From: Phycisphaerae bacterium
Lineage (GTDB): Bacteria; Planctomycetota; Phycisphaerae; Phycisphaerales; SM1A02
Direction of reading: 5' to 3'
DNA: 55,383 nt
Assembly: GCA_016873275.1 (NCBI GenBank)
Contig: VGXO01000015.1
Location: 1-55,383 of the forward strand
Made by a program: the position numbers and the translations under genes. Below, in pieces: positions 6,763-44,961 of this stretch. The notes under the pieces were generated by a model that was not told the DNA's origin, searched no databases, and worked only from the letters and a program-made list of their open reading frames with translations. Each line of letters opens with the position of its first letter. Position 1 is the first letter of the stretch.

Positions 6763-6790
6763 ACGCCCGCCGTCCGGGGACGGCGGGCGT
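6763..6790 (-). terminator. Rho-independent terminator of the isc operon
   Basis: A perfect 12-bp GC-rich stem (ACGCCCGCCGTC at 6763-6774, GACGGCGGGCGT at 6779-6790) with a 4-base loop. On the minus strand it is followed by TTTCTC. It lies 35 bp after the iscA stop codon in the correct direction. Confidence 0.85.
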
Positions 6791-6825
6791 CGGGAGGTCG
6801 AGGGCGGGTCTCGCCGCGGTCGCGG

Positions 6826-7236: not shown

Positions 7237-7285
7237 GGCGTTGGTTCCTGGAGAGGGTTCGCCCCGCGCGAGGGTCGCGGCGGGA

Positions 7286-7723: not shown

Positions 7724-7787
7724 GGTCTGAGGTCCTTTCGTGCACGGGACGCCCGGGGCGCCGCCGTCGGTTCCGTCGGGTCGTTCG

Positions 7788-13781: not shown

Positions 13782-13855
13782 CGCCCCCGGCCCGATTCGA
13801 ACGGGCGACCTAGCGCTTAGAAGGCGCTTGCTCTATCCGCCTGAGCTACGGGGGC
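13782..13855 (-). tRNA. tRNA-Arg (anticodon TCT)
   Basis: A 74-base cloverleaf on the minus strand. The acceptor stem GCCCCCG pairs with CGGGGGC, followed by discriminator G. The D-arm contains TAGCTCAGGCGGATAGAGCA, the anticodon stem-loop is AGCGC-CTTCTAA-GCGCT with anticodon TCT, and the T-arm contains the standard GTTCGAATC. The CCA end is not encoded. It reads AGA codons, which are rare in such a GC-rich genome. Confidence 0.96.
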
Positions 13856-27124: not shown

Positions 27125-29092
27125 CTACCGCACGCGGCGACCGCCGGGGAACGGGAGCGACGCGGGCGCCGGCTGCGACCGCTCGAGCTCCCGCATCCCC
27201 CGCGCCCATGCCTCGAGCATGAGCGCCGGCATCATCACCTGCGCCGGTCGCCCGAGCGGGTCGAAGGGGCTTGGCACCCGGTCGAGGCGACGGACCACGT
27301 CCATCTCCGCGAGGACGCCGCTGCGCAGGTGCTCGCCGTGGGCGTCGAAGATCGCCTGCGTCCATCCGCGCCAGGGCGGGGTGAATCCGCGCTTGCGGCG
27401 GTCGAAGATCTCCCGCGGCACGTGCTCCTCGACCGCGTCTCGGAGCCACCGTCGGCGCGGCAGCTTCCAGTCCTCGAGGCGACGCCGGAGGCCGATCACC
27501 GTCTCGACCAGCCGGTAGTCGACGAGCGGCAGCCGGCACTCGACGCTTGCCGCCATCGAGAGGCGATCGGCTTGATTGATCCCGTTGCAGAGGAGGTACG
27601 TGCGGACCAGCAGGTCGGTGATGGCGAGGTCCGGTCGCTCCGGGAGCGCCGCGTAGGTGAAGTGGCGCTCGGGACGGATGCCGCCGACGCGCTTGAGGAA
27701 CCCCGGGCTCGCCAGGTCTCGAAGCCCCGCCTCCGCCCGCCGCCACGAGGCATGGCGGTCCCAGAAGACCATCTGACCCGGGGGGCTCGTCCGGTCGCGC
27801 CGCCATGCCCGGACGCCATCGACGAGACCCGCCGCATGGAGCGCCCAGGTGACTCCCTCGCCATAGGAGCGCGGTGGTCGGCGCAGGCGGAGGTAGGACG
27901 GAAGACCCGCGCGACCTGCGAGCAGGTCGATCTTGCGGAGGTTGTCCCGGACCGCCTCGATCGTCCAGGGATAGCCCCAGAAGAGCTCGTCTCCGCCCTG
28001 TCCGAAGATCAGCACCGGGACTCCCGCCGCGCGAGACGCCTCCATCAGCGCGAGGTAGGCGGGCCCGGTGATGTCGGAGTTCGGCTCGTCGCGCGCCCGG
28101 CACATCCGCGCGAAGTCCTCGACGACCCGCCGCTTCTCGAGCCGCACGCGGTGGTGGCGGATCCCGAGCCGACCGGCGTACTCCGCGGCGAGGGCGCTCT
28201 CGTCGTACTGGCTCGACCCCTCGTAGCCGACCGTGAAGGCATGCACCTCGCCGGAGGCGTTCCGCCGGGCGAGCGACGCCACCATGCTCGAGTCGATCCC
28301 GCTCGAGAGCGCGACGCCGATCGGGACGTCCGAGCGGACGATCAGGCGACCCACCTCGTCGAGCACCCCCGCCACGTGCTCCCCGGGATCGCCGGCGATC
28401 TCGGGAGGCGAGTCGAGGATCGACCACCAGCGCCGCTCACGCACCTGCCACGGGTCGAGCGAGATCTCGAGGCAGCTCCCGGCGGGAAGCTTGCGGGTGC
28501 CGAGGACCGCGGAGCGCGGCTCGGGCACGAAGTCCCACATGAAGTAGTCGAGCACCGCCGCCTCGTCGAGGGCGAAGGGCACCACGCCGGCGCCGACGAG
28601 GGACTGGAGCTCGCTCGCGAAGACGATCCGGTCGCCCCGCTCCGCGAGGTAGAGCGGCTTCTCGCCGAGCCGGTCGCGGGCGATGAGCACCGTGCGCTTC
28701 TCGAGGTCGAGCAGGGCGAAGGCGAACATGCCGCGAAGCCGCTCGAGGCAGCCGCTGCCGAGCTCCTCGTAGAGGTGGACGATCACCTCGCAGTCGCTGC
28801 CGGTCGCGAAGCGATGCCCGCGCGACTCGAGCTCCTTGCGTCGCTCGACGAAGTCGTAGACCTCGCCGTTGGCGACGAGGGCGATGGTGCGCCGCTCGTT
28901 CCACAAGGGCTGCATCCCGCCCGCGAGGTCGATGATCGAGAGCCGCCGCATGCCGATCGCGGCGCGGTCGGAGGCGAACTGGTCGCCGCCGTCGGGACCC
29001 CGATGCTCGAGGTTCCGGGCGAGCGCAGAGAGCAGCGCCGGGTCCCCGTGCCGGAGACCGCCTCGATCGATGATGCCATAGATGCCGCACAC
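27125..29092 (-). CDS. asnB: Asparagine synthetase, glutamine-hydrolysing
   Basis: A 655-residue amidotransferase that makes asparagine from aspartate, glutamine and ATP. It must start at the GTG at 29092, because Cys2 is the glutaminase nucleophile and the sequence opens (V)CGIYGIIDRGG. The N-terminal Ntn domain includes LEHRGPDG and ANGEVYD. The C-terminal synthetase domain has the PP-loop LSSGIDSSM, the YDES motif and GQGGDELFWGYPW. It is slightly long and belongs to the broad asnB family, which also contains amidotransferases for surface polysaccharide and exosortase loci; none of those partners is nearby. A hairpin lies ~80 bp upstream of the start. Confidence 0.88.
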   Translation of the reverse strand: MCGIYGIIDRGGLRHGDPALLSALARNLEHRGPDGGDQFASDRAAIGMRRLSIIDLAGGMQPLWNERRTIALVANGEVYDFVERRKELESRGHRFATGSDCEVIVHLYEELGSGCLERLRGMFAFALLDLEKRTVLIARDRLGEKPLYLAERGDRIVFASELQSLVGAGVVPFALDEAAVLDYFMWDFVPEPRSAVLGTRKLPAGSCLEISLDPWQVRERRWWSILDSPPEIAGDPGEHVAGVLDEVGRLIVRSDVPIGVALSSGIDSSMVASLARRNASGEVHAFTVGYEGSSQYDESALAAEYAGRLGIRHHRVRLEKRRVVEDFARMCRARDEPNSDITGPAYLALMEASRAAGVPVLIFGQGGDELFWGYPWTIEAVRDNLRKIDLLAGRAGLPSYLRLRRPPRSYGEGVTWALHAAGLVDGVRAWRRDRTSPPGQMVFWDRHASWRRAEAGLRDLASPGFLKRVGGIRPERHFTYAALPERPDLAITDLLVRTYLLCNGINQADRLSMAASVECRLPLVDYRLVETVIGLRRRLEDWKLPRRRWLRDAVEEHVPREIFDRRKRGFTPPWRGWTQAIFDAHGEHLRSGVLAEMDVVRRLDRVPSPFDPLGRPAQVMMPALMLEAWARGMRELERSQPAPASLPFPGGRRVR

Positions 29093-29168
29093 GCCCCACG
29101 ACCCCCACGACGATCGAGCGCCGCCGAACCGACCCCGCCGCGGAGATCCCCGCGACGAGACCGCCGGA

Positions 29169-29200
29169 ACGTCGTCGGATGCGCTCGGCTCCGACGACGT
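29169..29200. terminator. 11-bp hairpin between acylphosphatase and asnB
   Basis: ACGTCGTCGGA at 29169-29179 pairs perfectly with TCCGACGACGT at 29190-29200, loop of 10. It may end the nusA-acylphosphatase operon or structure the asnB leader. The rest of 29093-29476 (384 bp) holds a weak hairpin at 29249-29262 and a doubtful 42-codon plus-strand frame, and nothing else I can support. Confidence 0.45.
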
Positions 29201-29476
29201 CCTCGGTGGATCACGGAGGGTGGATGACCCGCTGCGCTGCGCGGGTGCCGATGCCGCCATCGGAGGGAGGCGCCTCGCGACGCCGCGCCCGACGCGACAG
29301 AAGTCCGAACCTCGACGTCCTGTTCCACCCGTCACGGCGACCCGCCGCCATGCCAGACTGGACCCGATGGACGATCACGAGGACTCCTCGAGGCGATGCT
29401 CGGTCGCGAACCGCGCCGCCGGCACCCGAACGCGTCCCGCACGCCGGGACTTCATGCAAACCATACATCGGTCGAT

Positions 29477-29761
29477 TCACCCGCGCAGGATATGAAACGA
29501 GCGAAGGTCGGCCGCGGGCGGCAACTCGCGCCGCTCGAAGCGACTGATGCGACCCGCCATGGCGCTCCCGAGCTCGTCGAGGAACCGCGCGAGGTCGGCG
29601 GGGTCGCCCTGCACCTCCGCGGAGACGGTCCCATCGACCTCGTTCCGCACCCATCCCTTGAGGGCGAGGGCGGTTGCGATCGACGCCGAGGTCGCGCGGA
29701 AGCCGACGCGCTGCACGGTGCCGTGGAACCGAAGGGCGATCCTCGCCTCGCCCGCGCTCAC
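29477..29761 (-). CDS. Acylphosphatase
   Basis: A 94-residue enzyme that hydrolyses acyl phosphates. It starts at a GTG whose first bases overlap the yebC stop codon (GTGA), giving the usual family length. The P-loop signature is HGTVQRVGFRATS with the phosphate-binding Arg in GFR, and the catalytic Asn is in GWVRNEVDGTV; the end reads FERRELPP then FHIL in place of the common F-I. A longer ATG-initiated reading frame exists but lacks similarity. It is the last gene of the long nusA-infB-yebC run. Confidence 0.92.
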   Translation of the reverse strand: MSAGEARIALRFHGTVQRVGFRATSASIATALALKGWVRNEVDGTVSAEVQGDPADLARFLDELGSAMAGRISRFERRELPPAADLRSFHILRG

Positions 29762-30498
29762 GACTGCAGGATCTCGGCGGGGAGGTCGGCGTTGGTCCAG
29801 ACCTTCTGGACGTCGTCGTGGTCCTCGAGCGCCTCGATGAGCCGAAGCACCTTGGCGCCATCCTCCGCGCCGCAGGAGACCCTCACGAGCGGCACCCACG
29901 AGACCTCCGCCTGCTCGAGGGGGATCCCCGCCGCCTCGAGCCGCTCCCGCACGGCGAGGAACTGCGACGGCGCACAGGTCACCTCAAGGATCCCCTCGGC
30001 GGCGACCACGTCCTCGGCGCCCGCGTCGAGGGCGACCTCCATGAGGCGATCCTCCGCGACCACCGAGGCATCGACGAGGAACTGCCCCTTCTGCACGAAG
30101 GAGTAGAGGACCGAGCCGGGCACCCCGAGGTTGCCGCCGTGCTTGTCGAAGAGCATGCGGACCTCGGCGGCGGTCTTGTTCGCGTTGGCGATGAGGCAGT
30201 CGAGGAGGAACGCCACGCCGCCCGGTCCGTAGCCCTCGTAGCGCACCGCGTCGTACTGCTCGCCGCCGAGCTCCCCGGTGCCCCGCTTGACCAGCTTCTC
30301 GATGGTGTCGCGCGGCATGTTCGCCGCGCGGGCGTCGTCGATCGCGTAGCGGAGCGAGACGTTGAACTTGGGATCGCCGCCTCCGGTCCGCGCCGCGACG
30401 AGGATCGCCCGGCTGCACTTCGACCAGACCTTGCCGCGCTTCTTGTCGACGGCGGCCTTCTTGTGCTTGATGTTCGCCCAGTGACTGTGTCCGGCCAT
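29758..30498 (-). CDS. yebC: YebC/PmpR family DNA-binding / translation-associated protein
   Basis: A 246-residue protein of normal family length with the hallmark N-terminus MAGHSHWANIKHKKAAVDKK and the YEGYGPGGVA block near residue 90. Family members have been described as transcriptional regulators, and more recently as factors easing ribosome stalling at proline runs. Its place in an operon with nusA, infB and rbfA would fit the translation role, which is inference. A GAGGCG ribosome site precedes the ATG. It lies 59 bp after the TPR gene and overlaps the acylphosphatase gene by 4 bp. Confidence 0.95.
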   Translation of the reverse strand: MAGHSHWANIKHKKAAVDKKRGKVWSKCSRAILVAARTGGGDPKFNVSLRYAIDDARAANMPRDTIEKLVKRGTGELGGEQYDAVRYEGYGPGGVAFLLDCLIANANKTAAEVRMLFDKHGGNLGVPGSVLYSFVQKGQFLVDASVVAEDRLMEVALDAGAEDVVAAEGILEVTCAPSQFLAVRERLEAAGIPLEQAEVSWVPLVRVSCGAEDGAKVLRLIEALEDHDDVQKVWTNADLPAEILQS

Positions 30499-30557
30499 CG
30501 AAGGCGCCTCGTGGTGATGCTCGTGGTTCGTCGTGCTCGTGGACGCGTCGTCGCCGT

Positions 30558-33500
30558 TCAGGCGCCTCCGCCGGCGGCGGGCTCGAGCGGCGGCTCGATG
30601 GGTGCGACCTCCGGCTCGCGCCGGTCGGTGATCGCCCGCAGCTTCGCCCGCACGCGGTCGAGGATCTCCCCGTAGTTCTGCTCGTAGAAGTCCGCGGGAT
30701 CCCGCAGGACGAGCCCGAACTCGCCGCGCTGGAACGCCTCGATGCCGCGGATCGTTCCCTCGCGCTCGAAGCGGCGGAGCCCTGCCTCGACCGCCCGCTG
30801 CCACGCGCGGATCGCCTCCTCGCGCCGACCGATCCGCCACATCGCATCGCCGAGGTGATCGAGACCCTCGAGGCTCGCCGACTCGCCGTTCAGGCGCACC
30901 GCCTCCTCGATCAGCGAGACGGCGCCAGGACCCGCCGGGCGGTCCTCGATCCAACCACGCCGATAGCGCAGCCATCCGAGGCTGTCGAGGATGTGCGGGT
31001 CCGATGGACGAAGCTCGTGCGCCTCCCCGAGCAGCTCGATGGTGCGCTCGTCGAGCCGTCCGTCCTCGAGCCGCCCGTAGCCAAGGTTGTTGAGCGCCAT
31101 CGCGTCGCCGGGATCGCGCTCGACCACCCGCTCGAGGATGGCGAGCGATCCGGCGCGGTCGCCGACGATCGAGTAGATGCTCGATGCCTCGAGGATGGGA
31201 TTGGAGGGCTCGCCCTCCTGGCTTGGTCGCATCAGGCTTCCGCCCATGCCGAGGCGACCGAGCGCCGCGAGTTCGTCGAGGTAGGCGAGCGTCCGGTCGG
31301 CGCGACCGCCGCAGCGGGCGTCGAGCCCCACGGTCGCCGCCTGCAGCGTCCGTCTCGCCTCGCCATCGGGGAAGGGAATCGCGAGCGTCGCGACCCGCAG
31401 CACGAGCGCCGCCGCCTCCGGCTCCCCGGAGGAGAGCAGCCGCTCCGCGATCCCGAGCCAGCGGACCGCCGCCTCGTCGTCGTTCGCCTGCGCCGCGGGG
31501 CTCGCGACCGCCCGCGCCGCGAGCTCCGCGAGCGTGACCTCGTCCGCGCCCTCGAGCGCCGCCCCGAGGATCGCCGCGCCGTGCACCGCGAGCGGCGAGC
31601 CGGGATCCGCCGCGAGGACCTCCTCGGCGAGGTCGCGGATGGCGGGCGACCGCGAGGGCAGGCTCGGCGGCGCCTGCAGGGGGATCGTGAGCAGCCGCCA
31701 GCGCTGGTCGCGGGTGAGCGACGGCATCGAGCGGGCGAGCGCCATCGCGCGATCGATCGCCTCGCCGCCCGCCGCATCGATCGCGGCGGCGTCCACGCCG
31801 GCGCCGGGTCGCGCGGGTCGGGCGAGCCGACCGCACCGCTCGAGGCTCCACGACGCGAGGTCGAGGTCCCGCGCGAGGGTCGGCGGTCGCGCGGAGATCC
31901 GCGCGAGCGACATCGACTCCGCCTGCTCCGCCTTGCCGGTCGCCCGCTCGAGCGCCTCGAGCAGTCCCTTGGCGAAGGGATGGGCGGGATCCGCCTCGAG
32001 GAGCGCCCGCAGCGCCTGCTCCGCCTCCGCGGCGCGACCGGCGCGGATCATCGCGGCGGTCCAGAGATCCCAGCCCGCGGGCTCGCCGGGGCTCTCGGCG
32101 CGTCGCCGATCGAGCCGAGGCAGGATCTCGTTCGTGCGCCCGGCGCGGGAGAGCGACGCGACGATCGCCTGGAGCGCCGCCACGTCGGCGGGATGCTGCT
32201 CGACCACCGCCTCGAGCCGCTCGAGCGCCGCATCCACGCGGCCGCGGGCGAGCTCCTCCTCCGCCCGGAGCCGCTCGACGATCGGCTCGCCCTCGAGCGC
32301 CGCCGCCATGCGGGCGATCGCCCGACCATGGGCACCCGCGTCCGCCGCGGCGCCGCCGCGGGGATCGCGGAGCGAGATCAGCCACTCCCACGCGCCGACG
32401 GCGCGGGGATCCGCCTCGACGGCGCCCTCCGCGGCACGGACCGCGATCGAGAGGAGGAGCCCCCGCTCGGTCCCCACCGCCGCCGCCGCCTCCGCCGCCG
32501 CCGCGCGGGACTCGAGGACGAGCCACGCCGCGCGGGTCGCCGGCGGAAGCCCCGACGCGTCGCCCGCCGCCTCGACGATCCGCCATGCCTCCTCGCTCGC
32601 TCCCGCCGCGAGGTAGCCCGCCACGAGCGGCATCGACTCGACCACGCCCCGCGGCGCCCGCCACGCCTCGACCTCGCGGACGAGCTGCGGGTCGGCGAGC
32701 GCCGCCGCCGCCAGCACCCGTGCCCGGGCGAGCGCCGGGTCGGGACCATGCTTCGCCGCGGCGCCGGCGAGGAGCGCCCACGCCGCGACCGGATCACGCT
32801 CCGCGACGAGGATCGCGCCCTCGAGCGCATCCCGCGCCGGCGAGTCGGGAAGCCGTCGCACGCGATCACGGAGCTCCCCGGGCGTCGCGGCGGACGCGAC
32901 GAGCCGCAGCGCCGCCGGCTCGAGGACCTCGTCGTTGCGGGCGACGAGGTCGACCGCGATCGCGACGGCGCCCGCCGGATCGACCTGCTCGAGCCAGTCG
33001 AGGAGCTGCTCGGCGCCCTCGCCGCCGGGGGAACGCGCGGCGAGCTCGCTCAGGAGCCGGACCGTCGCCGGCGGATCGAGCCGCGCGAGGATCCGCACCA
33101 GCGCCGGCTCGTCGGGACGCTCGAGGCTCATCGACTCGATCGCCCGCGCCATCCGCCGCGCGTCGATCCCCTGCTCGGCGAGGTAGCCCGCGAGGGCGAC
33201 CTCCGCGTCGCCGGCGCTTCCGGCGACCGCGATCGAGTCGAGGAACTCCGACTGCGCCGCGATCGGACGACCCGCCACGAGGAGGGCAAGGACGATCCTC
33301 GTCCGCAGCGTCCGCGGATCCGCGGTCGGCAGCGCCGCCGCGGCGCGGTACTGCGCGACCGCCGCGTCCGCCTCGCCGAGCCGCAGCATCGCGTCGCCCA
33401 TCTGCTGCGCAAGCTCGCTCCGTCGGCGGAAGAGCTCCCCGATCCGCGCCGAGTCCTGACCGCCCGCCGCCGCGAGCGGCTCGAGCGGATGCGACGTCGC

Positions 33501-34262
33501 GCGGCGGGCGGCGTCGAGGAACGCCGCGTCGTAGCCGAGCTCCGCGAGCGAGGTCGCGAGGGCGAAGTCGACCGCGATCACCGTCGCGAGGTTGGCGTCG
33601 CTCCGCCCCTCGTCGAGGAGGCGCCGCAGCACCGCGAGGTACGCCGCCGCCTCCTCCCACTGGCGGCGGTTCGCCGCGTTCATGCCGATCGTGAAGAGCG
33701 CCTCGGAGTCGTCCGGCTCGAGCGCCCGCAGGCGCCGAAACGCCTCGGCGGCGCGCGGTCCGTTGCCCGCGAGCGAGTACGCCCGCCCGAGCTGCCGAAG
33801 CACCTCGGGCGAGGATGGATCGAGGACGTGCGCCTGCTCGAGCTCGCCCACCGCCTGCGGGAGCTCGCCCGCGGTCACCGCGGCGCGACCGCGGAGGTAC
33901 GCCTTCAGCGCCTCGCGGCGCTGCTCGGCGGTCGGCGGAGGCACCGAGGGAGGCGACGGAGGCGCCGCGACGTCGCTCCGCGACGCGACGATGCGGGCGG
34001 TCGCCTCCGCGAGCGGGAGTCGTGCCTTCTCGGGATCGGCGGAGGGCGCCACCGCGACGTCCTCGACGCCAGGCGGTGCCGGGGGCGGCGCTGCGGGCGG
34101 TCGCGGACGCTCCTGCTGCGCCGCCGACGCGAGCGGGTTCCGCGCATCGCCGGTCGTCGTGCAGGACGCCGCCGCGAGCGCGACGACGAGGATCACCGCC
34201 GCGGCGCGACCGGCGCGACCGGCGAGGAGACTCCGGAGGTCGCGGCGGAGGCGATCGGTCAC
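30558..34262 (-). CDS. Very large TPR-repeat lipoprotein
   Basis: A 1,234-residue protein starting at a GTG (34262), 4 bp after the stop codon of the HhH gene. The signal peptide ends in a lipobox (ALAAASC), so it is probably membrane-anchored in the periplasm. A Pro/Ala-rich linker (~50-110) is followed by tandem TPR-like helical pairs over most of the length. The clearest are near the start (GELEQAHVLDPSSPEVLRQLG, then AAEAFRRLRALEPDDSEALF) and at the end (AILERVVERDPGDAMALNNLGY, then DHLGDAMWRIGRREEAIRAWQ). TPR lipoproteins usually scaffold other proteins. Its presence downstream of translation genes is unexplained. The exact domain boundaries need a profile search. Confidence 0.88.
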   Translation of the reverse strand: MTDRLRRDLRSLLAGRAGRAAAVILVVALAAASCTTTGDARNPLASAAQQERPRPPAAPPPAPPGVEDVAVAPSADPEKARLPLAEATARIVASRSDVAAPPSPPSVPPPTAEQRREALKAYLRGRAAVTAGELPQAVGELEQAHVLDPSSPEVLRQLGRAYSLAGNGPRAAEAFRRLRALEPDDSEALFTIGMNAANRRQWEEAAAYLAVLRRLLDEGRSDANLATVIAVDFALATSLAELGYDAAFLDAARRATSHPLEPLAAAGGQDSARIGELFRRRSELAQQMGDAMLRLGEADAAVAQYRAAAALPTADPRTLRTRIVLALLVAGRPIAAQSEFLDSIAVAGSAGDAEVALAGYLAEQGIDARRMARAIESMSLERPDEPALVRILARLDPPATVRLLSELAARSPGGEGAEQLLDWLEQVDPAGAVAIAVDLVARNDEVLEPAALRLVASAATPGELRDRVRRLPDSPARDALEGAILVAERDPVAAWALLAGAAAKHGPDPALARARVLAAAALADPQLVREVEAWRAPRGVVESMPLVAGYLAAGASEEAWRIVEAAGDASGLPPATRAAWLVLESRAAAAEAAAAVGTERGLLLSIAVRAAEGAVEADPRAVGAWEWLISLRDPRGGAAADAGAHGRAIARMAAALEGEPIVERLRAEEELARGRVDAALERLEAVVEQHPADVAALQAIVASLSRAGRTNEILPRLDRRRAESPGEPAGWDLWTAAMIRAGRAAEAEQALRALLEADPAHPFAKGLLEALERATGKAEQAESMSLARISARPPTLARDLDLASWSLERCGRLARPARPGAGVDAAAIDAAGGEAIDRAMALARSMPSLTRDQRWRLLTIPLQAPPSLPSRSPAIRDLAEEVLAADPGSPLAVHGAAILGAALEGADEVTLAELAARAVASPAAQANDDEAAVRWLGIAERLLSSGEPEAAALVLRVATLAIPFPDGEARRTLQAATVGLDARCGGRADRTLAYLDELAALGRLGMGGSLMRPSQEGEPSNPILEASSIYSIVGDRAGSLAILERVVERDPGDAMALNNLGYGRLEDGRLDERTIELLGEAHELRPSDPHILDSLGWLRYRRGWIEDRPAGPGAVSLIEEAVRLNGESASLEGLDHLGDAMWRIGRREEAIRAWQRAVEAGLRRFEREGTIRGIEAFQRGEFGLVLRDPADFYEQNYGEILDRVRAKLRAITDRREPEVAPIEPPLEPAAGGGA

Positions 34263-34266
34263 CGGA

Positions 34267-35193
34267 TCAGCCCTTCGACTTGGAGGCGGTCTTCCGGGCG
34301 CCGGACCGCGCGACGCTCCCCAGGGGCGACTTCTTCAGGGGCGACTTCTTCAGGGGCGGCTTCTTCAGGAGCGGCTTCTTCGCGGCAGCGGGGCGAGCCG
34401 CCGACTTGGCGGAGGGCGTGGAGGAGGAGCTCTTGGAAGACGCCTTCTCCGCATCCTTCGCCACCGGACCCGCCGCGGGCTTGGTCTGGGGCTTGGTCTG
34501 GGGTTTGGTCTGGGGCTTGGCCTGGGGTTTGGTCTGGGGTTTGGTCTCGGTGATCGCGGTCTTGATCGGCTTGTCGGGCGTCGAGTCGGCGAAGGCGTGA
34601 AGCGCGTGGTGTGCCGCGACGGACCGCTCCGCCCCGACTTCCTTCGAGATCCAGGCGGCGGCGTCGGCGGTGCTGACGCCCGGCGCGATCACGCCCGCGT
34701 CCTGCAGCTTCCCGAGCAGGCGGGCGTCGACCGGCACGAGCGGCTGCCCGAAGACCAGCAGCAGCGTGCGGTGCGCGACGAACGCGGGCACGCCAGGCAG
34801 TCCCTCGAGGTACGCCCGTGCCTCCCGCTTGCCGGCGGAGGCGAGATGCGCGAGGTCGACCTTGTGGTGCCGCTGATAGACCGCGGTCAGCGAGGTCCGC
34901 ATGATCCGCAGGCGCTCGAAGGCGAGCGGATAGCGCACCCCGATGATCTCCATCGTCTCCTCGACGAGGCAGACCCGCAGGTCGTTCCAGTCGATGAGGC
35001 GGTCGGCGAGCTTCACGAACGCCGCGTCGGCGGAGGCGAGGGCCGCCTCCCAGGCGAGGACCGAGTGCACGAAGGCGCCGACCGGGTCGGTCGCGGTCTC
35101 CGCGGACCAGGTCGGCATCGTCGGCGCCTCGCTCGGCGCGTGCTTCTTGAGGAGCGAGGAGAGCTTGGTGGCGTGTCCGGCAGGGCCCTTCAC
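34267..35193 (-). CDS. HhH-GPD-like protein with a histone-H1-like Lys/Pro tail
   Basis: A 308-residue protein between rbfA and the TPR gene; its ATG overlaps the rbfA stop codon. Residues ~40-195 resemble the endonuclease III (HhH-GPD) fold: a hairpin-like GLPGVPAFVAHRTLLLVFGQ followed by PLVPVDARLLGKLQ, where the Asp matches the conserved catalytic Asp. The lysine expected after LPGVG in Nth is absent, and there is no C-terminal Fe-S cysteine cluster. The last ~100 residues are low-complexity and very basic, built from 12-bp repeats (TKPQ) and 15-bp repeats (KKSPL), like bacterial H1-type DNA-binding tails. Catalysis is doubtful; DNA binding is likely. Domain identity is inferred from pattern. 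Confidence 0.6.
   Translation of the reverse strand: MKGPAGHATKLSSLLKKHAPSEAPTMPTWSAETATDPVGAFVHSVLAWEAALASADAAFVKLADRLIDWNDLRVCLVEETMEIIGVRYPLAFERLRIMRTSLTAVYQRHHKVDLAHLASAGKREARAYLEGLPGVPAFVAHRTLLLVFGQPLVPVDARLLGKLQDAGVIAPGVSTADAAAWISKEVGAERSVAAHHALHAFADSTPDKPIKTAITETKPQTKPQAKPQTKPQTKPQTKPAAGPVAKDAEKASSKSSSSTPSAKSAARPAAAKKPLLKKPPLKKSPLKKSPLGSVARSGARKTASKSKG
34321..34380. repeat. In-frame 15-bp repeat, four units
   Basis: Four units of CAGGGGCGACTTCTT with one or two changes. They encode the KKSPL-type repeats at the basic C-terminus of the HhH protein. Confidence 0.9.
34480..34551. repeat. In-frame 12-bp repeat, six units
   Basis: Six units of CTTGGTCTGGGG or TTTGGTCTGGGG, encoding KPQT repeats in the linker between the HhH-like domain and the KKSPL tail. 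Confidence 0.9.
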
Positions 35194-35654
35194 GGCGTCG
35201 ATCCTCCGTCGTTCATGGCGTCGGTCATGGCGTCGGTCATGGCGTTGGTCTGGTCGTTGGCGTCGCGGATCGCCTGCTCCACCGCGGCGACCCGCTTGAG
35301 GCGGTCGTCGAGGCGGAAGTGGAGCCGCGGGATGCGGCGGAGCGCCGTGCGCTCGCGGAGCTTCGTGGCGAGGTGCCCCTTGGCGTGGTCGAGCGCGGCG
35401 ACCGAGAGGGGACCCTGCGCCTCCGGCAGCACCGAGACCGCGACGGTCGCGTCGGCGAGGTCCTTGGAGACCTCCACGTCGAGGATCGAGACGAGCCCGC
35501 GGTAGCGAGGGTCGTTGAGTCCCCGCGCGAGGATCCCGCGGAGCTCGCGGGCGAGCAGCGACCCCACCTGCGCGGTCCGCGAGGGACCGCCCTGCGGCGA
35601 CGAGGGCAGGTGGAACGAGCCGGGACCCGACGCGTTCGGCGAGGCGTCCTCCAT
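35190..35654 (-). CDS. rbfA: Ribosome-binding factor A
   Basis: A 154-residue 30S maturation factor. RTAQVGSLLARELRGILARGLNDPR opens the KH-like domain, followed by VSILDVEVSKDLADATVAVSVL and the closing helix LRERTALRRIPRLHFRLDD. It starts 5 bp after the infB stop codon, the standard gene order. The C-terminus carries a short in-frame 12-bp repeat (NAMTDAMTDAM). Its stop codon overlaps the start of the HhH gene. Confidence 0.93.
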   Translation of the reverse strand: MEDASPNASGPGSFHLPSSPQGGPSRTAQVGSLLARELRGILARGLNDPRYRGLVSILDVEVSKDLADATVAVSVLPEAQGPLSVAALDHAKGHLATKLRERTALRRIPRLHFRLDDRLKRVAAVEQAIRDANDQTNAMTDAMTDAMNDGGSTP

Positions 35655-35659
35655 GGGGG

Positions 35660-38422
<2,763 letters not shown>

Positions 38423-38455: not shown

Positions 38456-39781
38456 TCAGCTCCCGCGGTCGTCCGGCGCCGGACCGCCGCCGAGGATCGC
38501 GTCCGCGGCCGCCTCGGCCGCGGCGTCGGTGGGACCAGCGCCGAGCACGGCGTCGGTCGCCGCCTGCTCGGCGGCGCGGCGGACCTCCGCCTCCTCCTTC
38601 TCGCGGGCCTGCTGCTCGGCGACCTCCTTCGCCTTCTCCGAGCAGACCGAGACCACCAGGTCGGCGGTCTCGGCGGACATCCCGAGCTCCTGCTCGAGGA
38701 CCTCGGCGCCGAGCTCCTCGACGTCGAACACGCTGATCATGCCGAGCGCGCCCATCTTGTCGAGCGTCTCGTCGGTGATGCCCTCCACCGAGCGGACGGT
38801 CTGCTCGAGGATCTCGAGTCCCTTCTGGAACTCGGGCGGGGTGAGGATGTCGATGTCCCAGCCGGTGAGCCGCGCCGCGAGGCGGACGTTCTGCCCGCGG
38901 CGACCGATGGCGAGCGAGAGCTGGTCCTCGCGGACGATGATCGTCGCGCGACCAAGCTCGAAGCAGAGGCTGACCTCCTCGACCTCCGCGGGCTTCAGGG
39001 CGTTCGCGATGAGGATCTGGCTCGACTCGTTCCAGCGGACGATGTCGATCTTCTCGCCGCCGAGCTCGTCGACGATGTTCCGGATGCGGCTGCCGCGGAC
39101 GCCGACGCAGGCGCCGACCGCGTCGACCTTCGAGTCGATCGAGCTCACCGCGACCTTGGTGCGGAAGCCCGGCTCGCGGGACATCGCCTTGATCTCGATG
39201 ATCCGCTCGGCGACCTCGGGGACCTCGGTCTCGAAGAGGCGGCGGATGAAGTCGGGGTGCCCGCGGCTCAGGACGATCTTGACCTGCGGTCCGACGTCGC
39301 GGACGTCGAGGATCAGGCAGCGGACGCGGTCGCCCGGATGGAACTGCTCGCCGGGGATCTGCTCCGAGCGGGGCATGAAGCCCTCGGCGCGGTCGATCTG
39401 CACGACCAGCGCCCCGCCCTCGTAGCGGGCGGCGGTCCCGGTGACGAGCTCGCCCTGGCGCTTGGAGAACTCCTCGAGGAGGCTGTTGCGCTCGTCCTCG
39501 CGGAACTTCTGGATCATCACCTGCTTCGCGGTCTGCGCCGGGATTCGCCCGAGCGTGGCGAGCGGGATGTCCTCGCGGGTGCCGTCGAGCCGGTTGCGCC
39601 AGATCGTGATCGCGCCGGTGAGGCGGTCGATCTCGCAGCCGAACTCCTCGGCGTCGAGGCTGTTGAAGTGCTTGCGGGCGGCGCTCACCATCGCCTGCTC
39701 GAGGTCCCGGATGAGCAGGTCCCGGTCGATGTTCCGGTCGCGGGCGATGGAGTCGAGGATGCGGAGGGTTTCGGAGTTCAT
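38456..39781 (-). CDS. nusA: Transcription termination/antitermination factor NusA
   Basis: A 441-residue RNA polymerase-associated factor. The N-terminal domain begins MNSETLRILDSIARDRNID, the S1 domain lies at about 135-200 (GELVTGTAARYEGGALVVQI), and two KH domains follow with GVRGSRIRNIVDELGGEKID and LAIGRRGQNVRLAARLTGW. The C-terminus is helical (helix-hairpin-helix) and then acidic/Ala-rich. It heads the nusA-infB-rbfA operon. An in-frame extension to 40000 exists upstream but is unlike the family. The long structured leader suggests attenuation, possibly by NusA itself as in Escherichia coli; that is inference. Confidence 0.97.
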   Translation of the reverse strand: MNSETLRILDSIARDRNIDRDLLIRDLEQAMVSAARKHFNSLDAEEFGCEIDRLTGAITIWRNRLDGTREDIPLATLGRIPAQTAKQVMIQKFREDERNSLLEEFSKRQGELVTGTAARYEGGALVVQIDRAEGFMPRSEQIPGEQFHPGDRVRCLILDVRDVGPQVKIVLSRGHPDFIRRLFETEVPEVAERIIEIKAMSREPGFRTKVAVSSIDSKVDAVGACVGVRGSRIRNIVDELGGEKIDIVRWNESSQILIANALKPAEVEEVSLCFELGRATIIVREDQLSLAIGRRGQNVRLAARLTGWDIDILTPPEFQKGLEILEQTVRSVEGITDETLDKMGALGMISVFDVEELGAEVLEQELGMSAETADLVVSVCSEKAKEVAEQQAREKEEAEVRRAAEQAATDAVLGAGPTDAAAEAAADAILGGGPAPDDRGS

Positions 39782-39911: not shown

Positions 39912-40189
39912 GTCGCCTCCGACCCGCCCGGCGCCGAGGGCGCCGCACGAGCCGGTCCTGACCCTTGGGGGTCGGTCAGGACATGGAAGCCTCCATGCAC
40001 GAACCCGCGGCGAGCCGACCCGCCGAACGGGTCCCGCGCTCTCCGCCCCGAGGCTTCATGCCTTGGGTCCGACCATCGCCGCCCGGAAGATCATGCTCGG
40101 CTCGAGGCATCGCATGAGGATTGGATCGGCGAAGGTCGAAGGAGAGGAAGGACGACGACGCTTCGGCGACCGCCGCCGAAGAATCCGCG

Positions 40190-40219
40190 AGTGTATCGGG
40201 ACCTCGCCAAGGCGGTCAA
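40190..40219 (-). promoter_or_regulatory. Sigma70-type promoter of the nusA-infB operon
   Basis: TTGACC (40219-40214) and TACACT (40195-40190) are 18 bp apart on the minus strand, the best -35/-10 pair seen in the window. Transcription would start near 40183, giving a nusA leader of about 400 nt. The rest of 39782-40352 holds the leader hairpins and the dsbD upstream region (TAGGAT at 40300-40305 is a weak -10 candidate), with no gene. Confidence 0.65.
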
Positions 40220-40352
40220 CGAACCTCCCGAGTTCGCGCCCAATGACGCGCCTGAGCCGACCTCGCGCCGGACCTCGACGGTCCCGCCGAGCATCGCCGT
40301 AGGATCCGTTCCGCCCCGGAGGGCGATCTCGCCGATCCCCGACCCACCTCCC

Positions 40353-42308
40353 ATGCCGCGACGCGTCCTCGCTCCCCTGCTCTGCTTCGTCCTTTCATGG
40401 GGTCTCGCCGCCCCCGCCCTCCGCGGGCAGGTCCCGGGGATCCCGGCGCTTGGGAAGCCTGCCGCCCCTGCGTCGTTCGGCGACTCCCGGGACGTCGTGA
40501 AGGTGCGGGCGATCCCCGCCTCCTCGACCGTCCGCCGCGGCGGCGACCTGCCGCTGGCGGTCGAGCTCGCGATCGACGCCGGCTGGCACCTCTGGACCAA
40601 CGAGGGCAGCACCCTCGAGGGCGCGGTCGAGTTCGAGGGCGCGATCCGAACCGAGATCAAGGTGACGGTCCCTCCCGGCTTCTCGGCGCCCGCGGGGTTC
40701 ACCCAGTGGCCGACCCCGCACCTCATCAGCGCCGACCTCGGCGAGGGACCGCGGAGCTACGCCGTCTTCGAGGGTCGCGCGGTCGCCTTCCAGCCGATCG
40801 TGATCGCGCCCGACGCGCCGCCCGGTCCGGCGGAGATCTCCATCGAGGTCTCCTTCCAGGCGTGCGACGACCGGAGCTGCCTCGCGCCCGCGACGGTCGT
40901 CGTGAGCGCGCCGATCACCGTCGCCGCCGACGCCGCCACCAGCGCCCCCGGCGACGCGTTCGCGTCCTTCGATCCCGCGGTGTTCGGTCGCATCCGCGCC
41001 GGCGAGAAGGCGCCGGAGGTCGTCGACTTCGACGCGTTCGGGCTCCGGCTCTCGGTGGACATCCGCGGGGCGGGGTTCCTGCTGCTGCTCCTCCTCGCGG
41101 CGGTCGGCGGGCTCCTCCTCAACTTCACGCCCTGCGTGCTGCCGGTGATCCCGCTCAAGATCATGGCGCTCTCGCAGGCGGCGGGGAACCGCGGTCGCTG
41201 CCTCGTGCTCGGGCTCGCGATGAGCCTCGGGGTGATCGCCTTCTGGCTCGGGCTCGGCGTGGCGGTCGCCTCGATCAGCGGCTTCACCACGACGAACCAG
41301 CTCTTCCAGTCGCCGGTCTTCACGATCTCGGTCGGCGTGGTGATCGCGTTGCTCGCGATCGGCATGATGGGGCTCTTCTCGCTGCGGCTGCCGCAGGCGC
41401 TCTACATGATCGAGCCGCGGCACGACACCGTGCTCGGCTCCTTCGGCTTCGGGATCATGACCGCGGTGCTCTCGACGCCCTGCACCGCGCCCTTCATGGG
41501 CTCGGCGGTGGTGTGGGCGGTGACCGGCTCGATCGCGACGGTGCTTGCCGTCTTCGGCGCGGTGGGGGCAGGCATGGCGCTTCCCTACCTCGTCCTCGCG
41601 GCGTTCCCGGCGCTCGTCAAGAACATGCCGCGGAGCGGTCCGGCAAGCGACCTCATCAAGCAGGTGATGGGGCTCCTGCTCCTCGCGGCGGCGGCGTACT
41701 TCGCGGGCGCCGGGCTCAGCGGGCTCCTCGTCGAGCCGCCCACCCCGCCCGCGCGGGCGTACTGGTGGGTGGTCGGGATCGTCGCCGCCTCGGCGGGATT
41801 CCTGCTTCTCGCCCGGACCTTCCGCATCACGCCGCGGCTCGGTCCGCGGGTCGTCTACGGAGGACTCGGCGCGATGATCGCGGCGCTCTCGCTCGGCGTC
41901 GCGGTGCGGATGACCGACGAGGGACCGATCAAGTGGACGTACTACTCGCCCGAGCTCCTCGCCGACGCGCAGCGCGAGGGGATGGTGGTGGTCCTCGACT
42001 TCACCGCGGAGTGGTGCCTCAACTGCAAGACCCTCGAGGCGACGGTGCTCTCGCAGCCCGCCGTCGCCGACGAGATGAACTCCCCCGGCGTCGTCTCGAT
42101 GAAGGTGGACCTCACCGGCAACAACGAGGCGGGGAACGCCCTCCTGCGGCAGTCCGGTCGCCTGACGATTCCCCTGCTCGTCGTGCTTGCCCCGGACGGT
42201 CGGGAGGTCTTCAAGAGCGACGCCTACACCGCCGCGCAGGTGATCGACGCGATCAACGAGGCGCGGGGCGGCGTGCCCGCCGCGACGAGCACGGAAGGCT
42301 CCTCGTGA
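40353..42308 (+). CDS. dsbD: Thiol:disulfide interchange protein DsbD, full length
   Basis: A 651-residue inner-membrane protein that carries electrons from cytosolic thioredoxin to the periplasm. A signal peptide is followed by the N-terminal domain with the pair Cys171/Cys176 (QACDDRSCLAP). The membrane domain (~240-520) holds Cys261 in NFTPCVLPVIPLK and Cys377 in STPCTAPF. The C-terminal thioredoxin domain has the CxxC pair Cys555/Cys558 in TAEWCLNCK. All three redox pairs are intact. The stop codon overlaps the start of the DUF4286 gene. Substrates could include the redoxin and nDsbD-like proteins encoded ~15 kb away, or cytochrome c maturation; neither is shown. Confidence 0.95.
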   Translation: MPRRVLAPLLCFVLSWGLAAPALRGQVPGIPALGKPAAPASFGDSRDVVKVRAIPASSTVRRGGDLPLAVELAIDAGWHLWTNEGSTLEGAVEFEGAIRTEIKVTVPPGFSAPAGFTQWPTPHLISADLGEGPRSYAVFEGRAVAFQPIVIAPDAPPGPAEISIEVSFQACDDRSCLAPATVVVSAPITVAADAATSAPGDAFASFDPAVFGRIRAGEKAPEVVDFDAFGLRLSVDIRGAGFLLLLLLAAVGGLLLNFTPCVLPVIPLKIMALSQAAGNRGRCLVLGLAMSLGVIAFWLGLGVAVASISGFTTTNQLFQSPVFTISVGVVIALLAIGMMGLFSLRLPQALYMIEPRHDTVLGSFGFGIMTAVLSTPCTAPFMGSAVVWAVTGSIATVLAVFGAVGAGMALPYLVLAAFPALVKNMPRSGPASDLIKQVMGLLLLAAAAYFAGAGLSGLLVEPPTPPARAYWWVVGIVAASAGFLLLARTFRITPRLGPRVVYGGLGAMIAALSLGVAVRMTDEGPIKWTYYSPELLADAQREGMVVVLDFTAEWCLNCKTLEATVLSQPAVADEMNSPGVVSMKVDLTGNNEAGNALLRQSGRLTIPLLVVLAPDGREVFKSDAYTAAQVIDAINEARGGVPAATSTEGSS

Positions 42309-42676
42309 GCGCGACCGGACCGGTCCGCTACACCGTGACGGCGGAGTTCGACGACCGGGCGGTCCTCGACGAGTGGATCGCGTGGCTCCGCGACGGGCAC
42401 CTCGCCGAGGTGCTCGCGGGCGGCGCCGAGCACGCCGAGGTCATCCTCCTCGACCGCGAGCCGGACGCCGCCTTCGCCGCGGAGGTCCGCTACCGATTCC
42501 GCGACCGCGGATCGCTTGCCTCCTATCTCCGCGACCACGCGCCTCGGCTCCGCGAGGAAGGTCTTCGCCGCTTCCCGCCGAGCCGCGGCGTGCGCTACCG
42601 GCGCACGACCGGCGAGGTCGCGCCTACTCCGCGAGCCGAACCTCGAGCTCCCGCCGACGGGCCTCGGGGAGCCTGA
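42305..42676 (+). CDS. DUF4286 family protein
   Basis: A 123-residue protein starting at a GTG that overlaps the dsbD stop codon (GTGA). The ferredoxin-like dimeric alpha/beta-barrel pattern of DUF4286 is visible: VRYTVTAEFDDRAVLDEWIAWLRDGH, then EVRYRFRDRGSLASYLRDHAP and LREEGLRRFP. The function of the family is not known. The last 53 bp overlap the 3' end of the convergent membrane-protein gene, so the end of this protein is encoded antisense to the end of the other. Confidence 0.85.
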   Translation: MSATGPVRYTVTAEFDDRAVLDEWIAWLRDGHLAEVLAGGAEHAEVILLDREPDAAFAAEVRYRFRDRGSLASYLRDHAPRLREEGLRRFPPSRGVRYRRTTGEVAPTPRAEPRAPADGPRGA

Positions 42677-44837
42677 CGAGCGGATCGAGCTCGAGCGCCG
42701 CGTCGAGCTCGAGCGCCGTGCGCCACGCCGCGCGGGCATCGACGAGGTCGCCCGCGTCGCGCCGCGCGTCGCCGAGGTCGATCCAGAGCCCGACGTCCTG
42801 CGGCTGGAGGACGAGCGCCTGCGCGATCGCCTCGGCGAGCATGCGGGGGTCGACTCCGCCTGGCTCGATCGCCCGCCAGACCAGAAGCACCCGCGCCCGC
42901 TCGGCGAGCCGCCGCGCGGAGTGACCGAACGCCAGGTTCGCCTCCGCGCGGGTCCTCGCGGCGGCAAGGTCCTCCCGCGTCCCCGTCTCGGCGGCGACCG
43001 CGAGCTGCTGCTCGAGGGCAAGCGATCCCGCCCGCGCCGCGGCGGGACCGCCCTCGTCCGCGAGCGCCGAGAGCCCCGCGGCGGCACGACGGCGGGCATC
43101 AAGCGGATCGAGCGCCGGCGCCCGACGCTCCTCGATCGCTCGCCCGACCTCGTCGAGGGGCTCCGCCGCGAGGGCGAGCCGCGACTCCGCCTGCACCGCG
43201 GCGCGAAAGGGTCCCGCGAGGACGAGCAGGGCGATCGCCGCCGGCACGCCCGCGATCACGACCGCCACCCGCGAGCGCCTCGTCGGGTCGCCGCGCCGCG
43301 GCGCCGGCGGGCTGCCCGCGAGACCGACCGCGAGCATCGCCCACGCGATCGAGCCCGGGGCGAAGAAGGTCATCTCGATCTGCCCCTGCAGCAGCAGCAC
43401 GAACGCGACCGAGCCGAGGATCCACGCGAGCCGCGGGGGATCGACCGCGGCGAGGATCGACCGCGCGACGATCGCGGTCGGCAGGAAGAGGAGGATCCCG
43501 ATCCACCGCGCCATCCCGCTCCCGCCGCGCGAGGAGGGCTCGATCGCCCACAGGACCGCGGTCGCCGCCGCGAGCGCCACCACGAGGAGAAGGATGCCTC
43601 CGCGGCTCGGCGCGACGGATCCCGTGCTCCCGCCCGGCTCGTCGCGGCGCCACAGCACCCTCGCGAGCGCCGCGAACCACGCGAGCCCGACGACGCCCAC
43701 CGCGAGGAGCGAGTCGGCGACGAGCGAGTGGGCGCTCTGCACCGCCTCGGGGCTCCGGATCGGCTTCACGAGGAGGTACCACTCCTGGAAGCCCGCCGGA
43801 CCCACGCCGCGGAGCGGCTCCGCACGCAGCGTCCACGCGCTGCCGAGGAGGTAGTGCCAGCGGAACACCATGCTCTTCTCGCCGAGGAATCCCTCGGGGA
43901 GCAGGCCCCGCAGCAGCACCGCGGCGATCCCGAGGGGAATGCCGAGGAGCGCGATCCGTCCGGCGGCGCTCCGCCATCCTCGCGGCGGCGCGTCCCCCGT
44001 CGTCCGCCCGCTCCTCGATCCGATCGCCGCGACGGCGAGACCGGCGAGGAGCGCCGCGATCGCGCCCTTCGAGCCGTTGATGGCGACGCCGACGACCGCC
44101 GCGAGCGCGACGACGCCCGCAAGAAGCACCGTGCCTCCGCCGAGCGAGCGACCGCGCGTCGCGAGGGTCAGCTGCATCCACGCGACCGCGCACGCGGCGA
44201 GCAGCGCGGAGAAGACGTTCGCGAGCCCGAACCACGCCCCCGCCTCCGCCTGCGCGAGCCGCCGCTCGTAGAGGAGCGCCGCCTCGCTGCCCTCGCTCCA
44301 CCCGAAGGAGGCGAGGACCTCGGCGCGGTTCGCCTCGAAGTGGGCGATCGAGGCGGGGATCTCGACGAGCCACTGCTCGCCCGCCCGCGCGAGCCAGGGC
44401 ACCGCCGCGGCGAGGAGTCCCGCCGCGAGGAGCACGCGGAGGCGGCGATCATCTCGAAGGTGCGCCGCCGCGACGAGCCCGATCCAGCCCGCCGCAAGGC
44501 TCGCGCCGCGCCACGCCTGCTCGAGGTCTCCGCGGGCATGCCACGCGAGGATCGGCACCGGCAGGACCACGAGGAGGAGCGAGAGACCGTCGAGGCGCCG
44601 ACCCCGCAGCGCCCGCGACGCGAGCAGCAGCGACGCCGAGAGGAGGAGCGCCGCGTCGAGGAGAATCCCCCCCGACGCGCCCACCGCCTCGAGGGCGCCG
44701 GGCGAGCGAATCGGATCGACGTCGAACCACCGCCACGCCGCCTGCATCGAGGTCGAGCGGACGAGCGCGACCGCGAGCATGCCCGCGACCCCAAGCCACG
44801 CGAGCAGGTCCGCGGTGCGGGAGCGTTCAGCCCGCAT
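42624..44837 (-). CDS. O-antigen ligase-like polytopic membrane protein
   Basis: A 737-residue protein with about 11-13 hydrophobic helices in the first ~560 residues and a soluble, TPR-like helical C-terminus (~590-737: AEAIAQALVLQPQDVGLWIDLGDARRDAGD). The segments NGSKGAIAALLAGLAVA and the long periplasmic loop before EPLRGVGPAGFQEWY fit the O-antigen ligase/WaaL-PglL family, where the loop RG-G---F is typical. It would join glycan to lipid or protein at the periplasmic face; the substrate is unknown. I chose the ATG at 44837; an upstream in-frame ATG at 44939 lies beyond the likely leader. Its 3' end overlaps the DUF4286 gene. Confidence 0.75.
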   Translation of the reverse strand: MRAERSRTADLLAWLGVAGMLAVALVRSTSMQAAWRWFDVDPIRSPGALEAVGASGGILLDAALLLSASLLLASRALRGRRLDGLSLLLVVLPVPILAWHARGDLEQAWRGASLAAGWIGLVAAAHLRDDRRLRVLLAAGLLAAAVPWLARAGEQWLVEIPASIAHFEANRAEVLASFGWSEGSEAALLYERRLAQAEAGAWFGLANVFSALLAACAVAWMQLTLATRGRSLGGGTVLLAGVVALAAVVGVAINGSKGAIAALLAGLAVAAIGSRSGRTTGDAPPRGWRSAAGRIALLGIPLGIAAVLLRGLLPEGFLGEKSMVFRWHYLLGSAWTLRAEPLRGVGPAGFQEWYLLVKPIRSPEAVQSAHSLVADSLLAVGVVGLAWFAALARVLWRRDEPGGSTGSVAPSRGGILLLVVALAAATAVLWAIEPSSRGGSGMARWIGILLFLPTAIVARSILAAVDPPRLAWILGSVAFVLLLQGQIEMTFFAPGSIAWAMLAVGLAGSPPAPRRGDPTRRSRVAVVIAGVPAAIALLVLAGPFRAAVQAESRLALAAEPLDEVGRAIEERRAPALDPLDARRRAAAGLSALADEGGPAAARAGSLALEQQLAVAAETGTREDLAAARTRAEANLAFGHSARRLAERARVLLVWRAIEPGGVDPRMLAEAIAQALVLQPQDVGLWIDLGDARRDAGDLVDARAAWRTALELDAALELDPLVRLPEARRRELEVRLAE

Positions 44838-44920
44838 GGCTCGTTCCCGCGGCGCGATCGCCGTGCCAGGTCCTCGAGCCGCCGCCGATGGGACGCCCGC
44901 CGTGCATGCGGGGCAGTCTA
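44830..44920 (-). other. Possible leader ORF upstream of the ligase-like gene
   Basis: TAGACT (44920-44915) is followed after 7 bp by an ATG at 44907 in a different frame from the ligase. It opens a 26-codon frame (MHGGRPIGGGSRTWHG...) whose stop codon lies just past the ligase ATG at 44837. This could be a leaderless leader peptide with translational coupling, or chance. Confidence 0.25.
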
Positions 44921-44961
44921 CGGAGGGGAGCGGCTCCACTTGTCGCGCGGGCCGATTCGGT

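Follow-up and report, generated by a model that had tools for sequence, protein, structure and literature searches.

The gene directly behind rbfA in this planctomycete genome encodes a protein with the fold of endonuclease III (EndoIII; HhH-GPD) in whose family the catalytic residues have decayed. Our leading interpretation, which we hold tentatively, is that the family comprises undescribed pseudo-glycosylases, so far seen only in Planctomycetota (by profile searches within the phylum and a motif scan beyond it), that are no longer base-excision enzymes and act in translation, most likely as partners of RbfA in 30S maturation. The window, i.e., the whole stretch of DNA that was analyzed (55,383 nucleotides), contains the following features:

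29758..30546, minus strand, yebC/TACO1 translation factor gene, downstream of the lipoprotein gene (PF01709, 6.4e-51; PF20772, 7.2e-30)
30558..34262, minus strand, TPR lipoprotein of 1234 residues (TPR models; lipobox by eye), 4 bp downstream of the EndoIII-fold gene
34267..35193, minus strand, EndoIII-fold protein gene (308 residues, GTG start; homologues in 96 of 101 genomes, its own included)
34270..34578, minus strand, basic tail, residues 206-308 (26 K/R and 4 D/E among 103 residues)
34594..35193, minus strand, folded core, residues 1-200, with a predicted HhH-GPD/endonuclease III fold (AlphaFold2, PDB matches, profile match)
34726..34728, minus strand, Asp156, aligned with the catalytic D138 of EndoIII; retained in the window copy, variable in the family
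34780..34782, minus strand, Phe138, in the column of the catalytic Lys (E. coli EndoIII K120) in the alignment with canonical paralogues
34972..34992, minus strand, family motif D68-W-N-D-L-R-V74 (consensus D-x-N-[DE]-x-R-V), from the class and phylum alignments
35190..35654, minus strand, rbfA, 30S ribosome-binding factor (PF02033, 8.9e-21; TIGR00082, above its cut-off)
35660..38422, minus strand, infB (IF2), from the ORF start (TIGR00487)
38456..39781, minus strand, nusA, start inferred from the profile match (TIGR01953)

The rbfA stop codon (35190-35192) overlaps the start of the EndoIII-fold gene at 35193 in a GTGA junction, with GGAGG nine bases 5' of that start, and a 4-bp gap separates the gene end (34267) from the start of the lipoprotein ORF (34262). 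Upstream, infB ends 5 nt before rbfA and nusA lies 33 nt before the infB ORF, all on the same strand. A first-pass annotation made from the letters of the window had called this gene, its translational coupling to rbfA, its 4-bp distance from a giant TPR lipoprotein, and its setting in a nusA-infB-rbfA operon; the junctions and the profile matches bear out each of these calls. The corresponding order in E. coli is rimP-nusA-infB-rbfA-truB-rpsO-pnp-nlpI, so that the EndoIII-fold gene occupies the truB slot. The E. coli operon likewise ends with a lipoprotein gene (nlpI), a resemblance to the giant TPR lipoprotein at 30558-34262 that may be due to chance; a homologue of the latter lies downstream, on the same strand, in 24 of 60 opened class loci. 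Just ahead of the overlap, a 12-bp tandem repeat at 35207-35250 encodes AMTD repeats of the RbfA C-terminus. Near the cluster are genes for an asparagine synthase (27125-29335, minus strand), a protein resembling O-antigen ligase that scores under its Pfam cut-off (42624-44939, minus strand), and the A subunit of DNA gyrase/topoisomerase IV (48181-50910, plus strand), and the sole Rfam match in the window is one tRNA (13782-13855, minus strand).

AlphaFold2 modeling of residues 1-200 with a 61-member alignment yielded an all-helical core (mean pLDDT 93.5, pTM 0.90). By Foldseek and VIA-align 2, the best PDB match was EndoIII-3 (DR0928) of Deinococcus radiodurans (4uob), which shares the fold over 195 of the 200 residues (Z 18.9, rmsd 3.0, 17% identity), followed by ROS1, bacterial EndoIII, MagIII, MutY, and MIG. 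The best sequence match in a profile search was EndoIII-1 (DR2438) of the same organism (8a5f, E 3e-12). A relative from Gemmata sp. IIL30 that bears Fe-S cysteines was modeled through the cluster loop (pLDDT 88.9) and matched 4uob over 221 residues (Z 20.1, rmsd 3.6). The predicted structures and matches place the RbfA-linked protein in the endonuclease III (HhH-GPD) fold and among its homologues, as the first-pass annotation had supposed for the core. Family models scarcely register it: the window protein matched no Pfam family at E ≤ 1 and had no match in PHROGs or PADLOC, a single one of the 61 class members matched PF00730 (E 0.0089), with no class member recognized at the PF00730 cut-off, and PF00730 places never coincided with the best place of the gene in the 27 of 31 class genomes where that place is listed. 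EndoIII-3 keeps both the Lys and the Asp, both Deinococcus structures hold an Fe-S cluster, and EndoIII-3 is reported to be without detectable EndoIII activity (the available part of PMC9268735). Unlike these enzymes, the RbfA-linked family is without the Lys, often without the Asp, and mostly without the cluster, and it bears a motif of its own as well as a basic tail. The window genome encodes two further HhH-GPD proteins above the Pfam cut-off, by eye MutY and Nth, so base-excision repair appears to be covered there.

The family is widespread in the phylum. The 101 genomes of the same genus, family, and order include 81 well-assembled ones, all of which have a homologue, and the closest homologue from another genome gave E 2e-95. 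At class level, 187 of 198 sampled genomes have a homologue (153 of the 155 well-assembled ones); at phylum level, a profile search detected one in 230 of 246 (131 of the 134 well-assembled), the 230 possibly including canonical paralogues. Loci were opened from the listed matches with long contigs, strongest first rather than at random and none picked by synteny: 20 from the 95 relatives with a match, 40 from the 153 matching genomes in other orders of the class, and 40, in 39 genomes, from the 213 matching genomes beyond the class. Protein or profile searches had produced these class and phylum sets; a further 79 named loci came from a motif search. A scan of 84,980 species for V-D-W-N-[ED]-[VIL]-R-V gave 186 stretches, 144 of which were confirmed; the best 80 of the 144 were retained (79 loci), and these best 80 carry planctomycete titles, bar one titled only "Bacterium". 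Among the taxa named are Phycisphaerae, Sedimentisphaerales, Gemmata, Fimbriiglobus, Paludisphaera, Pirellula, and Brocadiaceae. The motif or a close variant was present at 39 of the 40 phylum loci; at the other, L107, an ORF (6771-8624, minus strand) joins an EndoIII-type domain that has Fe-S cysteines to an apparent cytosine-5 DNA methyltransferase, as judged by eye. We found no paper on an RbfA-linked EndoIII-fold gene in open-licence PubMed Central, and the available part of PMC11896706 holds nothing on the subject.

The 180 opened loci provided 177 cores for comparison after two identical cores had been merged and the L107 fusion, which is EndoIII-type but has no motif, had been dropped; at 95% identity, 167 remained. 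For the canonical proteins, 31 loci were tried and 28 HhH-GPD rows from class genomes, two of them from the window genome, were obtained by an HhH pattern that favors intact hairpins; L244 and L250, probably wrong-frame picks judging by their long branches and letters, were set aside to leave 26. Eleven of the 177 family cores were gapped at the catalytic columns. The family has no Lys at the K120 place (0/177; Phe 72, Tyr 48, His 12) versus Lys in 23 and Tyr in 3 of the 26 canonical proteins; the residues found there are F, Y, H, D, L, A, and others, with F/Y/H/W in 135 of 177 and no conserved Glu. Asp is present at the D138 place in 78 of 177 members (Thr 41, Asn 20, Ser 13) versus 26 of 26, and in the sets independent of the motif it is found in 42 of 61 (class) and 15 of 39 (phylum). 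At the Q41 place, the DNA wedge in the first intercalating loop, Gln occurs in one member (Glu in 39, Asp in 26) versus all 26 canonical proteins, and the window copy has Glu49. The GVG hairpin and loop, aligned in 167 relatives of which 10 are gapped, retain the second Gly in 10, the Pro in 143, and the Asp in 74. The window copy keeps LPGV, P154, and D156; the His of an H-A-x-P loop, found in 111 of 178, is Pro in the window copy.

A different stretch, the D-x-N-[DE]-x-R-V motif, is nearly invariant; the first-pass annotation had mentioned neither this diagnostic motif nor the yebC gene downstream. In the class set, R73 is kept in 61 of 61, N70 in 60, V74 in 59, and D68 in 58; in the phylum set, R73 and N70 are each kept in 39 of 39, D68 in 37, and V74 in 35. 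Arg fills the R73 place in 177 of 177 family cores versus 0 of 26 canonical ones, with the conservation of the motif in the 79 named loci being by construction, since the motif itself retrieved them. With L244 and L250 included, the canonical counts become K 23, Q 26, D 27, and R73 2 of 28. The canonical Nth and MutY proteins of class genomes thus share a homologous fold with the family, and the four Fe-S cysteines are kept in some relatives, but K120, Q41, D138, and the GVG hairpin are not kept in the family. We read this as constraint on catalysis and DNA entry having relaxed while other positions came under new constraint. That the catalytic residues have decayed is plain from the alignment, and a loss of enzyme activity in the family is the likely consequence.

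Loss of the Lys with retention of the Asp is a signature of monofunctional glycosylases as well, so this pair alone does not prove inactivity. The T/G glycosylase MIG has LPGV together with the Asp and an aromatic residue in place of the Lys, just as the window copy does, and 41 of 61 class members match the NCBIfam model MonDNAglycDR2438 (NF053634) at E ≤ 0.01. These features would suit a monofunctional glycosylase whose active site is altered but still works and which is expressed with the translation operon. Sis-HhH-GPD of Saccharolobus islandicus, likewise an HhH-GPD protein that has neither the catalytic Asp nor the catalytic Lys, is reported to be an active alkyl-base glycosylase with Ser for Asp and Glu (Glu134) for Lys (the available part of PMC11754123), which speaks against inferring inactivity from the missing residues and hence against the 30S reading. 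The RbfA-linked family, however, has no conserved Glu at that place, its Asp (78/177) and Lys-place residues vary freely, unlike those of an active site, while the other motif is fixed, and the window protein scores 31.6 bits with NF053634 against a curated cut-off of 400; we regard continued glycosylase activity as improbable. The first-pass annotation had described a lost Lys, a kept Asp, and a lost Fe-S cluster, which fits the window copy (Phe138, Asp156, no Fe-S cysteines), and had judged the protein probably non-catalytic. The Lys/Asp pair is by itself no sign of inactivity, but the active site has decayed family-wide (Lys 0/177, Gln 1/177, Asp 78/177), in keeping with that judgment.

The H1-like basic tail with KPQT and KKSPL repeats that had been noted earlier is evident from its composition, and it is probably disordered. 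Its repeats correspond to tandem repeats in the DNA (a 12-bp unit × 5.9 at 34477-34547 and a 15-bp unit × 4.1 at 34321-34381). The window core is neutral and the family median is -4 (range -18 to 10), compared with -5 to +13 for canonical cores, of which 23 of 28 are positive. The Fe-S cysteine pattern is absent from the window protein, but the cluster loss that had been noted earlier does not extend to the whole family, for 31 of 167 relatives retain the cysteines. This state is probably ancestral, given that it is shared with EndoIII and spread over several families. Of the 127 non-redundant members that are without the cysteines and have a tail of at least 20 residues, 98 have at least 25% K/R in the tail, versus 9 of 31 members with the cysteines; cysteines and a basic tail occur together in L094, L095, and L109.

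These properties bear on a second alternative, that of a non-catalytic DNA-binding protein (nucleoid-associated or a lesion sensor) whose H1-like tail binds DNA, whose core reads distorted DNA without cutting it, and whose proximity to nusA couples it to transcription. Lys-rich tails suit DNA too, the closest structure is EndoIII-3 of D. radiodurans, and the Fe-S loop cysteines persist in 31 of 167 relatives. NusA has been linked to genome integrity. A genome-integrity link is reported for IF2 as well (the available part of PMC3334882), so a DNA role in a nusA-infB operon would not be absurd. The core nevertheless lends no support to the DNA binding proposed in the first-pass annotation: it is neutral here and acidic on median, the Gln wedge is gone, with an acidic residue there in 65 of 177 members, and the GVG hairpin is lost. 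The neighbors, moreover, are translation genes. A ruv or DNA-repair cluster behind yebC was considered and rejected; no repair family was matched by eight ORFs of the window or by ten ORFs beside yebC elsewhere, many of which matched no family at all. We consider a DNA-binding role unlikely.

The position behind rbfA is conserved. All 60 opened class loci, of which 20 come from the order of the window genome and 40 from other orders, have the gene behind co-oriented rbfA and infB, and nusA was found in 58 of them. Among the 167 non-redundant homologues (95% identity), rbfA is directly upstream in 130, namely 59 of 59 from the class, 9 of 39 from the phylum, 61 of 68 named, and the window; outside the class, then, it is not adjacent in 30 of the 39 non-redundant homologues of the phylum sample. 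Before redundancy was removed, rbfA lay directly upstream in 9 and approximately 2.6 kb upstream in 3 of the 40 phylum loci, and directly upstream in 68 of the 79 named loci, where two of the other 11 (L173 and L198) begin at a contig edge. The lineages with direct linkage include Phycisphaerae, Gemmata, Paludisphaera, a Pirellula-labelled MAG, and Brocadiaceae. The first-pass annotation had called the position unusual and had raised a comparison of rbfA neighborhoods across Planctomycetota; the gene proves to stand at rbfA in every class locus opened and in several further planctomycete lineages, and "unusual" was an understatement. With gene starts picked by rule, the median gap to rbfA was 13 nt (141 loci) and 57 of the 141 starts overlapped rbfA, mostly in a 4-bp ATGA or GTGA. 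Junction distances disclosed no rbfA-gene fusion.

On a quick tree of 206 rows that includes near-copies and in which 78 of 203 inner branches have less than 80% support, the label "rbfA-adjacent" required 9 changes versus a mean of 57.9 for shuffled labels. The mirror-tree partial correlation between the family and RbfA was 0.35 over 104 loci, and within the class it was 0.20 versus 0.28 for the family and NusA, a weak signal of co-evolution with RbfA. A simple operon accident was rejected as the main reading because rbfA adjoins the gene in every opened class locus and in other lineages as well. The nusA-infB-rbfA operon is widespread and stable in bacteria, a stability that would also accommodate a passenger gene kept by translational coupling with no tie to translation. 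That reading seems very unlikely in view of the near-invariant motif, the conservation over most sampled genomes of the phylum, and locus L216, where infB and nusA sit on the opposite strand but rbfA and the gene are still paired, so that the pair has outlasted the break-up of the operon.

Another translation gene recurs in the neighborhood. On the same strand, yebC is found downstream in 40 of 60 class, 14 of 40 phylum, and 24 of 79 named loci. Among 40 unique loci without adjacent rbfA, yebC is downstream in 13, three of which have rbfA approximately 2.6 kb upstream and one of which (L173) is broken by a contig edge; the pairing of the gene with yebC without adjacent rbfA was observed in L116, L119, L122, L125, and L222. 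YebC is described as a translation factor (the available parts of PMC12234827 and PMC11990639), and the protein could thus be a translation factor unrelated to 30S assembly, e.g., a YebC helper at stalled ribosomes or an mRNA- or tRNA-binding regulator of the operon. Linkage to rbfA is, however, both commoner and closer, with rbfA linked in 136 of 176 loci versus 76 of 176 for yebC, a count that is lowered because flanks end early in some loci. We rate a function apart from 30S assembly as rather improbable.

The 30S maturation factors RimP, RimM, and RsgA belong to the RbfA pathway, which the family is proposed to share, and rimP is part of the E. coli nusA-infB-rbfA operon; no sequence relation of these factors to the RbfA-linked family was seen. 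RimM, scored as absent when PF01782 had no match at E ≤ 0.001, was found in none of the 31 class genomes and none of the 99 phylum genomes, and RimP (PF02576) in none of the 31 and in 11 of the 99 (10 above cut-off), whereas both families were detected in all 10 bacterial genomes among 14 controls. RsgA was strong (E <1e-40) in 15 of 31 class genomes and above cut-off in 16; no convincing RsgA/YjeQ GTPase was found in the window genome (best 7.9e-4) or in three other sampled genomes of its order. A hidden RimP upstream of nusA was rejected: the two ORFs compared with Pfam there, 40091-40726 and 40395-41423, had no match, and the ORFs upstream of nusA have homologues in at most 8 of 60 loci. 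According to the available part of PMC12641178, rimM and rimP are conserved in >90% of non-CPR bacteria, and CPR bacteria are also without RimM and RimP. We found no report of RimM loss in Planctomycetes in open-licence PubMed Central, and there is nothing on it in the available part of PMC11896706. RbfA, RimP, and RimM are reported to have overlapping roles and stages in 30S assembly and folding (the available part of PMC8201178), and this overlap, combined with the missing RimM and RimP, provides circumstantial grounds for proposing that the EndoIII-fold protein shares the task of RbfA. Its linkage to rbfA does not simply track the loss of RimP, because 30 of 39 phylum homologues are non-adjacent and 88 of 99 genomes are without RimP.

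A role with RbfA in 30S maturation is favored by the adjacency to rbfA in the class (60/60) and overall (130/167), the start overlaps, the intact pair of L216, and the downstream yebC, as well as by the decay of Lys, Gln, and Asp against a fixed R73, the median core charge of -4, and the presence of MutY and Nth. Weighing against it, membership in an operon can reflect shared expression only, and the mirror-tree signal is weak. Under the 30S reading, RbfA and the EndoIII-fold protein would be made together through translational coupling, and the Lys-rich tail would hold the latter on pre-16S rRNA. The D-x-N-[DE]-x-R-V motif would lie on the surface and dock on RbfA, a ribosomal protein, or rRNA, so that the protein would bind the ribosome, possibly in contact with RbfA, and may assist the folding or proofreading of the head or the decoding region of the 30S subunit. 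With RimM absent and RimP nearly so, 30S-maturation work would be left for it to do, and it may substitute for either factor. A more specific and more doubtful version is that, early in Planctomycetota, a DNA-repair fold became a ribosome-assembly factor, the base-flipping pocket of EndoIII now holding a flipped-out base of 16S rRNA while RbfA works on the decoding region. The remains of such a pocket would be the aromatic residue at the old Lys place and the H-A-x-P loop, of which the window copy keeps the Phe and has Pro for His.

The gene is widely conserved, nearly unannotated, and tied to rbfA in several lineages of one phylum. Because Fe-S-bearing relatives occupy the same place in Gemmata-type genomes, the decay from enzyme to pseudoenzyme may be traceable stepwise. 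If the protein does act on the ribosome, it would represent a rare recruitment of a repair-enzyme fold to ribosome assembly, and it would offer a handle on 30S maturation in planctomycetes, which appears to proceed without RimM (found in none of 99 sampled genomes) and, for the most part, without RimP.
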